Origin: Clostridia bacterium
GTDB taxonomy: Bacteria; Bacillota; Clostridia; Christensenellales; Borkfalkiaceae
Direction of reading: 5' to 3'
Assembly: GCA_017463105.1 (NCBI GenBank)
Contig: JAFTPU010000005.1
Location: 1 to 50,782 of the forward strand
DNA length: 50,782 nucleotides
The notes below the pieces were generated by a model. That model saw nothing but the letters and a program-made list of their open reading frames with translations, was not told the origin of the DNA and ran no database searches. Position numbers and translations under genes: made by a program. Shown here in pieces: positions 47,136-50,643 of the stretch; the stretch's first letter is position 1, and the number at the start of each line of letters is the position of its first letter.

Positions 47136-48029
47136 TCAATCCTTCGTTTCCTGCTTTTTTCGTTCGCTGATAAACGCGCTCGCCGAATGTGCCGCTACGT
47201 TTCCCTCGCCGACCGCTTTTGCGTATTGATAGGGTCTGCCCGTGCAATCTCCCGCGGCGTAGCATCCGACGATATTCGTCTGCATATCCCGCGACACCTT
47301 CACGTGTCCGTCAAGCGTTTCCAAACCGCCCACAAGCGTTGCGGGCGAGACGCTTTCGCGAAGGGCGAACAGACCGTCGATCTCGAGCTCGCTTCCGATA
47401 TCCGCCGAGATCGGCGCGGCGAACACGAGCTTCTCCACGCGCATTTTTCCTTCAAGCTTTACGGGCATTTTACGAATGATCTGTATGTTTTCCCGTTCGA
47501 TCTCGACCTCTTTATACATGGGAATGAGATAAACTTTCGCCGCAAAATCGGCAAGAAACTCGATCTCATGCTCCAACCGTTTGCTCGTACAAAGGACGGC
47601 GACCGTTTTTCCCTTGTAAAGAAAACCGTCGCAGGTTGCGCAATAGCTCACGCCGCGCCCGACGAACTCCGTTTCCCCCTCGATCGTTTTTACCGATTCC
47701 ACGCCGCACGCGAGGATCACGGTACGGCTTTCGTAATAACCGCCCTCCTGCGTCGCCACGCCGAATTTGTCTTTGAGCGCATACACGCCCATCGCCCTTT
47801 CCTCTTTTACGACGATACTCGCCGCTTTGAGTTGGGCTTGTAACGCCTCGCAAAACGCTTTTCCCGTCACGTCTAAAAGCCCGGGATAATTGCGGATTTT
47901 TTCCGCCTTGGCGATTTTTTCGCTCAATCCCGTTTGTCCGAGCAATATAAAATTTTTACCGTTTGCCTGCAACGTAAGTGCCGCGGAAACGCCCGCCGTG
48001 CCGCTACCGATCACGATACAATCCTGCAT
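47136..48029 (-). CDS. trxB: Thioredoxin reductase-like flavoprotein lacking the NADPH motif
   Basis: 297 residues. FAD is bound by VIGSGTAGVSAALTL (residues 6-20) and AAGDCTGRPYQ near the C-terminus. The redox-active pair is CATC (130-133). In ordinary TrxB the second dinucleotide loop reads VVGGGDSA; here it is VAVLCTSKRLEHE (143-155), without the glycines or the NADPH-phosphate arginines. This matches what is known of ferredoxin-dependent flavin thioredoxin reductases of clostridia. AAGGAG precedes the ATG. It lies downstream of the WTSN operon but behind a terminator. Confidence 0.85.
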   Translation of the reverse strand: MQDCIVIGSGTAGVSAALTLQANGKNFILLGQTGLSEKIAKAEKIRNYPGLLDVTGKAFCEALQAQLKAASIVVKEERAMGVYALKDKFGVATQEGGYYESRTVILACGVESVKTIEGETEFVGRGVSYCATCDGFLYKGKTVAVLCTSKRLEHEIEFLADFAAKVYLIPMYKEVEIERENIQIIRKMPVKLEGKMRVEKLVFAAPISADIGSELEIDGLFALRESVSPATLVGGLETLDGHVKVSRDMQTNIVGCYAAGDCTGRPYQYAKAVGEGNVAAHSASAFISERKKQETKD

Positions 48030-48117: not shown

Positions 48118-48258
48118 TTAAAAATTAGACGTCCAATGGTTGTCCTCTGCGTTCTGATTTCCGCCCGATCTATTATCGGAAGAATCGTTCGAATTACACC
48201 CGACAAACAGCGCAAAAGCACAAAAAACGCCCAGCACGAGTATTAAAAACCTTTTCAA
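48118..48258 (-). CDS. Small lipoprotein ending HWTSNF (WTSN operon, third gene)
   Basis: 46 residues with a TTG start, chosen because GGGGAG lies 7 nt upstream. A basic start (KRF) and a hydrophobic core LILVLGVFCAFALFVGC end in a lipobox-like FVGC, so the mature form would be a lipidated peptide of about 26 residues: CNSNDSSDNRSGGNQNAEDN followed by HWTSNF. The tail is shared with the two genes upstream. The body is polar, rich in Asn, Ser and Asp. It is 18 bp after the middle gene and stops at the operon terminator. No family is recognised. Confidence 0.75.
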   Translation of the reverse strand: MKRFLILVLGVFCAFALFVGCNSNDSSDNRSGGNQNAEDNHWTSNF

Positions 48259-48276
48259 TTTTTCACTCCCCGCCAC

Positions 48277-48405
48277 TTAATAGTTCGACGTCCAATTTCT
48301 TTCGTCATCGAGGTCCTCTACAGGTTCTCCCGAGTTTTCTAAAAATACGTCCTTGGCTTCCCACTCCGTGATATCCGCCTCGGGCGAAAGATATTTCTTT
48401 TTCAC
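48277..48405 (-). CDS. 42-aa peptide ending NWTSNY (WTSN operon, middle gene)
   Basis: A 42-residue peptide with a GTG start and AGGAGG 9 nt upstream; an ATG at 48423 would add six residues but has no ribosome site. It begins KKKYLSPEADITEWEAKDVF, a pattern (KKY..PE....FE..DV) seen in many small unannotated clostridial peptides, and then has an acidic linker and DDERNWTSNY at the end. There is no signal peptide or hydrophobic segment. It resembles a leader-plus-core precursor or a small partner protein. It lies between two lipoprotein genes with the same C-terminal motif; the spacing (36 and 18 bp) shows a single operon. Confidence 0.75.
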   Translation of the reverse strand: MKKKYLSPEADITEWEAKDVFLENSGEPVEDLDDERNWTSNY

Positions 48406-48441
48406 CTTTTTCTTCCTCCTCATATCAATTTCTTACTCGTC

Positions 48442-48894
48442 TTAATAATTCGAGGTCCAATGACTGTCATCATCTATATCCACATCCGAATCGCCGTCGT
48501 CTCCGCTCGAGTCGCTCGAATCGCTTGCGTCACCGTCGCTTGAATCGTTGTTATCGCCCGAATCCACGCTACTGTCGGCGTCCGAATCGGTATCTTCCGA
48601 ATCACTCGCCGAACCCGTGTTGCTATCGCCGTCGGTACCCGAATTTTCGGAATCGCTTTCCGTATCACCCGAGTCCATATCGCTTTCGGTCACGTCGCCG
48701 CCTACGTCATCGGTGTCCGTTTCGCTCGAAGCCGCGGTTTCCGTACCTTGTTCGCTTCCGTCCGAATCTGCGTTCGTACCCAACGTATCGCCTGCGGAAT
48801 ATTCGCTTTCGCTTCCCGGTTCTTCGGAGTTACAGGCGACGAAGGAAAACACGCTTGCCGTTATACATAAAAGAAAAATAAGAAATTTTTTCAT
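48442..48894 (-). CDS. Acidic Ser/Asp-rich lipoprotein ending HWTSNY (WTSN operon, first gene)
   Basis: About 150 residues. MKKFLIFLLCITASVFSFVAC is a lipoprotein signal with the cysteine in FVAC. The mature part is low-complexity, almost only Ser, Asp, Gly, Glu, Thr and Asn (for example DTESDSENSGTDGDSNTGSA), like the Ser-Asp stalks that hold surface proteins off the wall. It ends DDDSHWTSNY. I start at 48894, where the AGGGG at the leader is 10 nt away; the ATG at 48903 lies one nt from it. It is the first gene of the operon, behind a consensus promoter. The function is unknown. Confidence 0.8.
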   Translation of the reverse strand: MKKFLIFLLCITASVFSFVACNSEEPGSESEYSAGDTLGTNADSDGSEQGTETAASSETDTDDVGGDVTESDMDSGDTESDSENSGTDGDSNTGSASDSEDTDSDADSSVDSGDNNDSSDGDASDSSDSSGDDGDSDVDIDDDSHWTSNY

Positions 48895-48929
48895 TTTCGA
48901 CATACCCCTGCATTATCATTATTACAATT

Positions 48930-49046: not shown

Positions 49047-49814
49047 TCATCCAAGCGCCACGTCTAGTACCATCATCAATACGAAACCGAACATAAGCCC
49101 CCACGCCCCCGCTTTAAAATCATCGGATATGCGGGAATCGGGGATAAGATCCTGTGCCGTCACAAAAATCATTGTGCCTGCGGAAAACGCCAAAAGCCAA
49201 GGTTGTAAAGTTTTCAGTCCCGTCGCCAGAAAATATCCCATCACGGCGCAGATCGGCTCGATAAGTCCGCTCCCTACCCCCCATAAAAACGCTTTTTTAT
49301 TGTCTTTGAATACGTTTTTCATTGGTAAGGAAACCGCCGCACCCTCGGGAAAATTCTGCACCGCCATACCGATGGCGAGCCCGAACGCCGATAAAAACGC
49401 CGCCGTCGTACCGATCATCGCCGCCGCGCCGAACGCGAATCCAACCGCAAGTCCTTCGGGAATATTGTGCAAAGTGACCGCTAAAAAAAGCCGCCGCGGT
49501 TTGCTGTTTTTCGCTTTGCCGCAAAGCTTCGCCGTACACTTGTCGAGTAGAACGAGAAACGCGCCGCCCGCCAGAAAACCGATCGCGGCGGGTAAAAAGG
49601 CGAGCTTGCCGAAATACGTTTCCGCTTGCGCAAGCGAAGGCAGCAGAAGCGACCACACCGACGCGGCAAGCATAACGCCCGAAGCAAAACCGAGAAATAT
49701 CGCGTTTATTTTCGGGGAAATTTCCCCCTTAAACAAGAAAACGACCGCCGCGCCCAGCGCCGTCATTAAAAAAGTAAAGATTATTCCGAAAATGGTTATC
49801 CACACGTGTCCCAT
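49047..49814 (-). CDS. ZIP family metal transporter
   Basis: 255 residues, eight predicted helices. Helix 4 carries the ZIP signature HNIPEGLAVGFAFGAA with the His-Asn...Glu metal site, and helix 5 QNFPEGAAVSLPM is the second half of it. FASGVMLAASVWSLL near the N-terminus and the C-terminal FSAGTMIFVTAQDLIPDS are typical of the GufA-like subgroup. It imports zinc or another divalent cation. GGAGGA precedes the ATG. Monocistronic with its own promoter. Confidence 0.93.
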   Translation of the reverse strand: MGHVWITIFGIIFTFLMTALGAAVVFLFKGEISPKINAIFLGFASGVMLAASVWSLLLPSLAQAETYFGKLAFLPAAIGFLAGGAFLVLLDKCTAKLCGKAKNSKPRRLFLAVTLHNIPEGLAVGFAFGAAAMIGTTAAFLSAFGLAIGMAVQNFPEGAAVSLPMKNVFKDNKKAFLWGVGSGLIEPICAVMGYFLATGLKTLQPWLLAFSAGTMIFVTAQDLIPDSRISDDFKAGAWGLMFGFVLMMVLDVALG

Positions 49815-49943: not shown

Positions 49944-50159
49944 TCAGTAATCTTTTCTTCCTATTAAAAAATCGATCTCTTCGTTAAAATAATCGGCTAT
50001 TTTAACGAGATTTTCCAAGGTAATTTCCCTTTGACATAATAAATAACGGGAAATAGTCTGTTGCGGTATGCCCACCTTTTTTGAAAACTCCGTTATCGTC
50101 ATATTCCCCATCAAGGATTTTAAATTTTGTGCCAACGAAAACATATATTTATTTTCCAT
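49944..50159 (-). CDS. XRE family (Cro/CI-type) transcriptional repressor
   Basis: A 71-residue, single-domain helix-turn-helix protein: LAQNLKSLMGNMTITEFSKKVGIPQQTISRYLLCQREITLENLVKIADYFN. The recognition helix is PQQTISRYL. Its promoter region holds a 26-bp perfect palindrome whose half TAAAAT is also its probable -10 box, 6 nt before ATG. No ribosome site fits, so the mRNA appears leaderless and the gene autoregulated. It is divergent from a lipoprotein gene with a second copy of the operator. Confidence 0.9.
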   Translation of the reverse strand: MENKYMFSLAQNLKSLMGNMTITEFSKKVGIPQQTISRYLLCQREITLENLVKIADYFNEEIDFLIGRKDY

Positions 50160-50164
50160 ATTCT

Positions 50165-50190
50165 TATTTTACACCATTTGGTGTAAAATA
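50165..50190. promoter_or_regulatory. Operator O1, 26-bp palindrome
   Basis: TATTTTACACCA-TT-TGGTGTAAAATA, perfect 12-bp arms. It covers the promoter of the XRE gene and is probably bound by the XRE protein (autorepression). Confidence 0.85.
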
Positions 50191-50191
50191 C

Positions 50192-50221
50192 TTGACTTCA
50201 CACCAAACGGTGTGCTATAAT
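50192..50221 (+). promoter_or_regulatory. Promoter of the small lipoprotein gene
   Basis: -35 TTGACT (50192-50197), an 18-nt spacer and -10 TATAAT (50216-50221). Operator O2 fills the spacer. Confidence 0.85.
50199..50214. promoter_or_regulatory. Operator O2, in the promoter spacer
   Basis: CACACC-AAAC-GGTGTG, with the same ACACCA half-site as O1 and 24 bp from it centre to centre (about two DNA turns), so bound repressors can stack on the same face of the helix. Confidence 0.8.
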
Positions 50222-50253
50222 TTACATATAAAACACATGGAGGGTTTCTACAA

Positions 50254-50643
50254 ATGAAACATAGGATAAAATATCATTTTTTCACGCTCATTTTAACTAT
50301 TATTTTTTCGTATATGTTCGTCGGCTGTTTCTTTTCAAGCAGTAAGAGATACACTTTGGAACAATCGTATTCAAGCAATACTTTTCGAGGAACTTTCGAG
50401 CTTGATTTCAGTGGGAATATTCCTACCTATAAATACAGCGGGAACGACATTGATGCCTACTGTGATATGGGAATGATTGCCGTTACCATATACGGAGAGA
50501 TTGAAAAAGAGGGCTATCTTTACGACTGCGGAGAAAAACGAAACGGAAAAACGAAATATATGCCGAGTGGCATGGACTATTATTTATGGCTCAGCGAAGA
50601 CGAAAGCTTTCTTAGTTACGGTGGCTATGTTTTTGAAAATTAA
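50254..50643 (+). CDS. Small putative lipoprotein under XRE control
   Basis: 129 residues. The signal KYHFFTLILTIIFSYMFVGC ends in a lipobox (FVGC, cysteine at residue 25), followed by a polar FFSSSKRYTLEQSY and a strand-rich domain with many Tyr, Gly and Asp (YGEIEKEGYLYDCGEK). Two further cysteines (residues 70 and 92) could bond outside the cell. GGAGGG precedes the ATG. Codons are more AT-rich than in neighbours, which may point to recent acquisition together with the XRE gene. No family is recognised. Confidence 0.75.
   Translation: MKHRIKYHFFTLILTIIFSYMFVGCFFSSSKRYTLEQSYSSNTFRGTFELDFSGNIPTYKYSGNDIDAYCDMGMIAVTIYGEIEKEGYLYDCGEKRNGKTKYMPSGMDYYLWLSEDESFLSYGGYVFEN

Follow-up and report, generated by a model that had tools for sequence, protein, structure and literature searches.

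The locus described here raises the question of why three neighbouring genes encoding otherwise unlike proteins should end in the same few residues. The genes lie in a 50,782-nucleotide stretch of DNA from a Clostridia bacterium of the family Borkfalkiaceae (contig JAFTPU010000005.1; the whole stretch is referred to as the window), which belongs to the 1.29 Mb, 80% complete genome of an uncultured gut bacterium (G000).

Architecture of the window operon

Inspection of the open reading frames confirms that three consecutive minus-strand genes with unlike bodies share a C-terminal tail, as proposed in a sequence-only reading of the window, with the frames 48442-48903, 48277-48423, and 48118-48276 ending in DDDSHWTSNY, DDERNWTSNY, and AEDNHWTSNF respectively. 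The sizes proposed there (about 150, 42, and 46 residues) match the likely starts read by eye, namely ATG 48894, GTG 48405 following an AGGAGG, and TTG 48258, with ATG 48423 and GTG 48276 as alternative starts that would extend the middle peptide to 48 residues and the short protein to 52. The first gene (48442-48894) encodes a Ser/Asp-rich lipoprotein of 150 residues, with a signal peptide and lipobox (FVAC) evident by eye and the tail WTSNY at 48445-48459. The second (48277-48405) encodes a 42-residue peptide that its profile relatives mark as a putative precursor of the linear polyphosphorylated peptide (LPP) type, with the tail WTSNY at 48280-48294, and the third (48118-48258) a short Asn-rich lipoprotein of 46 residues with the lipobox FVGC and the tail WTSNF at 48121-48135. 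The DNA pattern for WTSN followed by Tyr or Phe matches three times in the whole 1.29 Mb genome, always within this operon, while the reversed control matches nowhere in the same 1.29 Mb. Comparison of the codons bears out the earlier remark that the tails are written in different synonymous codons (TGGACCTCGAATTAT, TGGACGTCGAACTAT, and TGGACGTCTAATTTT).

The middle peptide had been described as leaderless, however it carries the sequence YLSP (48382-48393, minus strand), an instance of the YxxP motif that the main text of Popov et al. 2026 (PMC13381572) describes in LPP leaders, and is therefore not leaderless in the RiPP sense. Six residues past the conserved Asp of the peptide lies a Ser (48331-48333, minus strand) that, judged by the family pattern and the LPP chemistry in the same text, is a candidate equivalent of the LPP phospho-Ser.

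The proposal of a single promoter and terminator holds in so far as like sites are found at both ends of the operon. The best promoter-like site on the 5' side is TTGACA-17-TAAAAT with a TG ahead of the second hexamer (48958-48930, minus strand; 11 of 12 positions matched), a consensus match only, and a terminator-like hairpin of 14 pairs lies on the 3' side (48110-48079, minus strand), although the scan of the stretch barely exceeds chance, with three promoter-like sites compared with 1.8 in shuffled sequences, and two terminator-like sites compared with 1.6. The operon is bordered by minus-strand genes for an FAD/NAD(P) oxidoreductase (47136-48029; Pfam Pyr_redox_2), matched in 53 of the 57 genomes of the genus, and a ZIP metal transporter (49047-49814; Pfam Zip). 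Both are treated as conserved neighbours, the former also as a locus marker, and neither is claimed as part of the system.

Searches of the three window proteins against Pfam and NCBIfam gave sub-threshold matches only, with that of the long lipoprotein probably reflecting composition. At E ≤ 0.01, PADLOC returned no match for the three window proteins, nor for the kinase, PqqD protein, and protease of relatives described below, and a role in anti-phage defence was dropped on this basis. Elsewhere in the window (49944-50643), a small regulator resembling phage repressors by eye is divergent from a 129-residue lipoprotein-like frame, with two ACACCnnnnGGTGT palindromes between them.

Conservation of the tail

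The sequence-only reading held that a motif found in one genome alone would count against a tag. The exact sequence WTSN[YF] followed by a stop is indeed limited to one of the 57 genomes of the genus, with none in the other 56, and the DNA pattern (TCN codons only for Ser) was useful nowhere else among 151 genomes of the family, two of which match only if TGG (Trp) is read as a stop. However, the idea of a tag survives because the architecture is retained in syntenic homologues together with a variant tail. These homologues were found by reading upstream of the neighbouring oxidoreductase gene in relatives, with the tail WTAFY on the peptide and WTAFY, WIGPF, and WTDFH on the lipoproteins of G168; WTAFY on the peptide and WTGWY and WTDFV on the lipoproteins of G188; and WTGFY on the peptide and WTGFY and WTDFH on the lipoproteins of G162. 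All three genomes encode tailed Ser-rich lipoproteins, the long lipoprotein being present in G168 as two near-identical copies, and the peptide gene comes first in each of these operons and in the middle in the window.

All three window proteins carry the tail, as first described, but it is not confined to them. In the looser form W[T/S/I]xx[Y/F/H/V], with Tyr for Trp once, it ends 36 proteins from at least 21 of the 57 genomes, a lower bound since only fetched stretches were read. Scans for tails and for the peptides described below covered both strands. Three tails that fail the acidic filter (in G172, G137, and G187) were added by hand to give the 36, and a minus-strand Sphingobacterium frame (L267) matching the pattern was left out as chance. 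Across the 36 tails the first position is Trp in 35 (Tyr in one), the second Thr in 33 and Ser in two more, the third any residue, the fourth Asn in 21 or Phe in 10, and the last Tyr in 28. Five kinds of body precede the tail, comprising the peptides, Ser/Asp-rich lipoproteins, short lipoproteins, Listeria-Bacteroides-repeat lipoproteins, and proteins with a single transmembrane segment (TM, assigned by eye). Tailed short lipoproteins occur alone or with repeat lipoproteins in G159, G187, G137, and G152, and tailed genes adjoin a ZIP gene in G169 and G171, with ZIP-like proteins recognised by eye beside them in these two genomes and G152. A profile of the short lipoproteins matches all 57 genomes at E ≤ 1, mostly through the signal peptide, and for this reason only hits whose tail was read by eye were kept.

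Among 16 short lipoproteins, one per genome, mean pairwise identity is 0.55 over the last five residues, an inflated, upper figure because possession of the tail was the basis for choosing the rows and G157, with a syntenic gene ending in FPEEWN, was left out. The same proteins share 0.35 identity over their first 15 residues, 0.14 over the ten residues before the tail, and 0.12 over the start-anchored linker. The selection on the tail peptide claimed earlier is upheld by this persistence in rows chosen for the tail, and selection seems, on these alignments, to act on the tail while the linkers diverge. At tail positions -3 and -2, likeness within genomes is 0.50 compared with 0.225 when shuffled (p 3e-4; 25 tails, 10 genomes), which may in part be paralogy, and a permutation of peptides against lipoproteins at these positions alone is weak (p 0.053, six genomes).

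A second class of tail, built around ELP, is found on lipoproteins at L123 3976-4328, L152 3991-4639, L149 3836-4289, and L150 1586-2103, and supports tail matching as such. A peptide with a long and a short lipoprotein repeats the design in G095, where the lipoproteins end in IELPEDKFD and IELPEDPF and the peptide lacks their ELP tail. In G163 the peptide ENELPLAPFAKS adjoins a lipoprotein ending in ENELPFVPVE, the ELP tail being common to both, and likeness between peptide and lipoprotein tails is partial in G156 and absent in G178.

The peptide family and its maturation genes

Members of the family to which the middle peptide belongs are about 35-55 residues long, with Tyr or Phe followed by Pro near the start, then Asp-Val, then Ser. 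The window peptide as a single query retrieves only weak relatives from this family (best 0.001). The 87 distinct members considered here were gathered with profiles built from tailed peptides and do not sample the family at random; [YF]xxP is present in 60 of them (YxxP in 54), a Ser lies 3-8 residues past the Asp in 81, and Trp occurs among the last 12 residues in 58. The WTxxY tail is found on seven, five of which share an operon with tailed lipoproteins (G000, G168, G188, G162, and G169) and two alone, in G126 (WTGIY) and in G182 (WTDNY, flanked by argH- and argC-like genes). Expressed by neighbourhood, the tail is present on 5/5 peptides with a tailed lipoprotein neighbour versus 2/82 of the others, assuming that peptides whose neighbours were partly seen have no tailed neighbour. 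The tailed lipoprotein of G126 sits at its pqqD locus, away from the tailed peptide, and tail and machinery are therefore matched at a distance in this genome. Family-profile matches at E ≤ 1 number up to 11 per genome, a figure that includes some lipoprotein tails or chance matches, and two further family peptides of the window genome end in GWGD.

Peptides of this family co-occur with a PqqD-type RRE protein. Both are present in 72 of 301 genomes (100 positive for the peptide at E ≤ 1, 108 for PqqD; Fisher p 7e-20), and in 30 of the 173 high-quality genomes (40 and 48 positive respectively; p 4e-13), with the statistics ignoring kinship and both searches taken to cover the same 301 genomes. 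The high-quality exceptions are 18 genomes with PqqD and no peptide, and 10 with a peptide and no PqqD, five of which, kept in the count, are probably false, their best peptide match lying within a long frame. The peptide gene stands directly 5' of that for PqqD in G011, and in G014 a secreted-protein gene is followed in order by those for the peptide, kinase, PqqD, and protease, an exporter being absent.

Hits of the short-lipoprotein profile led to a conserved cluster in relatives, encoding a P-loop kinase of about 240 residues, a PqqD protein of 87 residues, a signal-peptidase-like protease of about 155 residues, and an ABC exporter, with groEL/groES, a deaminase, a cyclophilin, and purB (names assigned by eye) typically ahead of the kinase. 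PqqD is found in 33 of the 57 genomes of the genus, and in 11 of the 12 high-quality ones. Thirty loci were read, and in 11 of the 27 with a visible upstream side an anchored protein with the tail is encoded directly before the kinase, the tail being canonical in ten (G160, G175, G179, G172, G155, G126, G095, G167, G049, and G174) and non-canonical in G157. In all 11 except G049 and G174, purB lies just ahead of the tailed gene. Two such genes are present in G172, a short lipoprotein ending in WSKNY and a Ser/Asp-rich one ending in WTKNY, resembling the lipoprotein pair of the window, while in G174 the tailed gene, kinase, PqqD, protease, exporter, and NTP_transf_5 genes follow in a row. The connection to a RiPP system suggested earlier is made likely by both the co-occurrence of family peptides with the RRE protein and the position of the tailed gene directly before the kinase, RRE, protease, and exporter genes.

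Tailed genes tend to occupy one of two places. In 26 genomes they are found at the kinase/PqqD locus only in 10, at the ZIP/oxidoreductase locus only in seven, at neither in nine, and at both in none (p 0.017), a table that leaves out G160 and G169 (one locus cut by a contig end) and G000 and G187 (no PqqD hit), and that, for the second place, covers stretches around the oxidoreductase, so that a tailed gene next to a ZIP gene lying apart from it (the case in G171) may have escaped notice in other genomes. The table is not independent of kinship, because the ZIP-locus label needs only three changes on the kinase tree, a pattern that points to a small number of relocations and not to numerous separate events.

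The RRE proteins match PF05402 at 1e-16 to 1e-17, with residues N35, D72, and F76 invariant among relatives. As a profile, they match TfuB1 (1.2e-5), PbaB1 (9.7e-5), and LppB (9x8z; 1.9e-4) in the PDB, a single RRE query matches PbaB1 and not LppB, and the best NCBIfam match is a lasso PqqD model, below its cut-off. The kinase has an invariant SGxGKSTH Walker A motif and NGDKP, with NCBIfam matches to ScmC (1.3e-7) and HprK-related models, all below cut-off, and the protease has invariant Ser29, His67, and Asp82 (in RGDN), with a match to sigpep_I_arch (4.7e-6) below the curated cut-off; for both enzymes there was no Pfam match, and profile searches of the PDB gave chance matches only. The exporter matches ABC_membrane and ABC_tran above cut-off and MsbA_lipidA (1.5e-78) below the curated cut-off. 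The next gene past the exporter, tested in four of the 11 clusters read that far, is NTP_transf_5 in two (G060 and G174, directly 3'), a glycosyl hydrolase in one, and without a clear match in one.

In the other genera viewed, the exporter, and often the protease too, is not beside the kinase-PqqD pair. At four loci in other genera of the family (L286, L287, L289, and L293), the place of the protease and exporter after the pair is taken by a gene for a DUF1846 protein (tested in L286) or for a similar-looking protein of 487-495 residues. In a second phylum, Bacteroidota, four loci (L247, L258, L268, and L284) may encode LPP-like systems, with a relative of the kinase found beside PqqD, ABC exporters, and a small protease of the S24/S26 type. 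NTP_transf_5 is also present in L247, and no cyclase was noticed by eye at any of the four.

Searches of the 80% complete window genome yielded neither PqqD nor the kinase nor purB, the kinase and purB searches being run without a positive control, and the link to RiPP maturation therefore rests on the relatives. A gap in the assembly is the likely explanation for the absent PqqD and kinase, since their usual neighbour purB is missing too.

Relationship to known systems

The closest published counterparts are the LPPs, a group of RiPPs whose gene clusters, according to the main text of Popov et al. 2026 (PMC13381572), encode a signal-peptidase-like LppS, an RRE protein LppB, an HprK-like kinase LppK, an MsbA-like exporter LppD, and an NTP transferase LppN. 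The precursors described there carry the motif YxxPxVLxHQxIxFETxxS, with the leader cut after the Thr, Ser3 of the core polyphosphorylated, and C-termini called highly variable; YxxP is the RRE-binding motif of both LPP and lasso precursors, held in LppB by N33, D70, and F74, and the catalytic-site residues compared for LppS are S29/H68/D93. The clostridial clusters likewise combine a kinase of the HprK type, a discrete RRE, an MsbA-like exporter, and a signal-peptidase-like protease, with an NTP transferase gene following that of the exporter in two relatives, and their putative precursors mostly have YxxP in the leader and a Ser past the leader motif, with variable C-termini. By spacing, N35, D72, and F76 of the RRE correspond to N33, D70, and F74 of LppB, with Asp at the Tyr-binding position (D72) as in LppB, whereas PbaB1 has Gln. 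On these likenesses, the system of the relatives probably works like the LPP pathway, as a clostridial relative of it.

In contrast to the Bacilli of PMC13381572, as far as its main text describes them, the organisms here are Clostridia with many scattered peptides per genome, often adjoining large secreted proteins. Their leader reads DVxxxS rather than FETxxS, the HQ..FET part being replaced by one ending in DV, and lipoproteins copy the tail of the peptide. A clean assignment to the LPPs is further opposed by the RRE, as the lasso proteins TfuB1 and PbaB1 match slightly better than LppB 9x8z. Paeninodin-type lasso systems also share the leader motif with a PqqD-like RRE, an HprK-like kinase, and an ABC exporter, and PbaB1 is the slightly better RRE match, however neither a macrolactam synthetase nor a B2 protease was noticed by eye in the clusters viewed. 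Similarly, the SynChlorMet cassette proteins ScmC/ScmD (NCBIfam) pair a kinase of the type matched here with a PqqD-type partner, although the kinase match is below the curated cut-off.

The sequence-only reading knew of no described system with this architecture, which stands for the lipoproteins, the word "lipoprotein" having 0 occurrences in the main text of PMC13381572, but not for the machinery, which resembles that of LPP RiPPs. A literature search for tail-matched lipoproteins found none, with unrelated work only among the matches listed, and a search by the LPP name gave PMC13381572 as the sole match. The kind of machinery has thus been known since 2026, whilst the tail-matched lipoproteins look new.

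Discussion

The explanation that we favour, and to which we would give an even chance, is that the operon is the tail-matched set of an LPP-type RiPP system, with the tail read outside the membrane by a common candidate partner. The set would consist of one LPP-like precursor, with a YxxP leader and an acidic core ending in WTSNY, together with a pair of lipoproteins in which an acidic or Asn-rich linker leads to the matching WTSN[YF]. By analogy with the pathway in the main text of PMC13381572, the RRE would bind the leader, the Ser of the peptide would be phosphorylated, and the peptide would leave by the ABC exporter once its leader was removed. The lipoproteins would leave through Sec, and because the two kinds of product take these different routes and would meet only outside the membrane after export, an extracytoplasmic partner is the simplest reading. 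One such partner would read the tail, the lipoproteins may hold it at the membrane, and the peptide may recruit it, compete for it, or signal through it. A common binding partner or a RiPP link, both offered in the sequence-only reading, is likely given the persistence of the tail and its placement before RiPP genes in relatives. More tentatively, the free end of a peptide may be copied onto membrane-tethered proteins, so that a mobile and an anchored form of one short tail make a matched pair, with interchangeable classes of tail (WTxxY, ELP..) from operon to operon and a shared receptor outside.

The encoding of a tailed lipoprotein beside the kinase, and the Thr or Ser that follows the Trp in nearly all tails (33 and two of 36), would also be expected if the LPP enzymes recognised or modified the tail in the cytoplasm, acting on its Thr, Trp, or Tyr in both peptide and lipoprotein precursors before these were exported by their separate routes. 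We consider this unlikely, as LppK acts on Ser3 of the core and does not phosphorylate the S3T and S3Y variants (main text of PMC13381572), which makes modification of the tail in the cytoplasm less likely. Furthermore, the lipoproteins have no RRE leader, and most other collected family peptides do not have this tail. It is quite unlikely, in our estimation, that the lipoproteins are tethered decoys providing self-protection by occupying a protein of the producer that senses or attacks the peptide. Such a role would suit anchored proteins with the same tail on low-complexity linkers, encoded directly before the maturation genes, however the biological role of LPPs is given as unknown in the Discussion of PMC13381572, and nine of the 26 genomes judged lack a tailed lipoprotein at either of the two loci.

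Substrates of sortases have an LPXTG-like motif, a C-terminal TM, and a positive tail. The tails described here resemble sortase and rhombosortase signals in being a short C-terminal motif on several unrelated surface proteins, and a sortase-like role had been raised for them, in which the tail would be cut and the protein joined to the envelope by a transpeptidase. On anatomy this finds no support and is disfavoured, with the sequences ending directly in WTSNY/F, lacking the LPXTG-like motif, the C-terminal membrane segment, and basic residues after it, on bodies that a lipobox or an N-terminal TM already anchors. The gene calls of the clusters viewed, read by eye, showed no transpeptidase, and C-terminal sorting is in our view very improbable. 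That the tails are alike merely through recent duplication or gene conversion between neighbours, as the two near-identical long lipoproteins of G168 might be taken to indicate, is scarcely credible, and was rejected on the different synonymous codons of the tails, the unlike bodies of peptide and lipoproteins, and the recurrence of the tail across the genus on diverged linkers; the second tail class in the same architecture also speaks against it.

Under the favoured reading, of a tail read outside the membrane, the C-terminus of an LPP-like precursor would be tied to dedicated surface proteins, providing a handle on the receptor and role of these peptides. A common family of tiny clostridial genes may furthermore represent RiPP precursors served by one central machine, many of which adjoin genes for large secreted proteins. 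Family peptides directly flank very large secreted-protein genes at L123, L127, L128, L131, L132, L133, and L136, and the same pairing is seen at L142, L143, L144, and L198.
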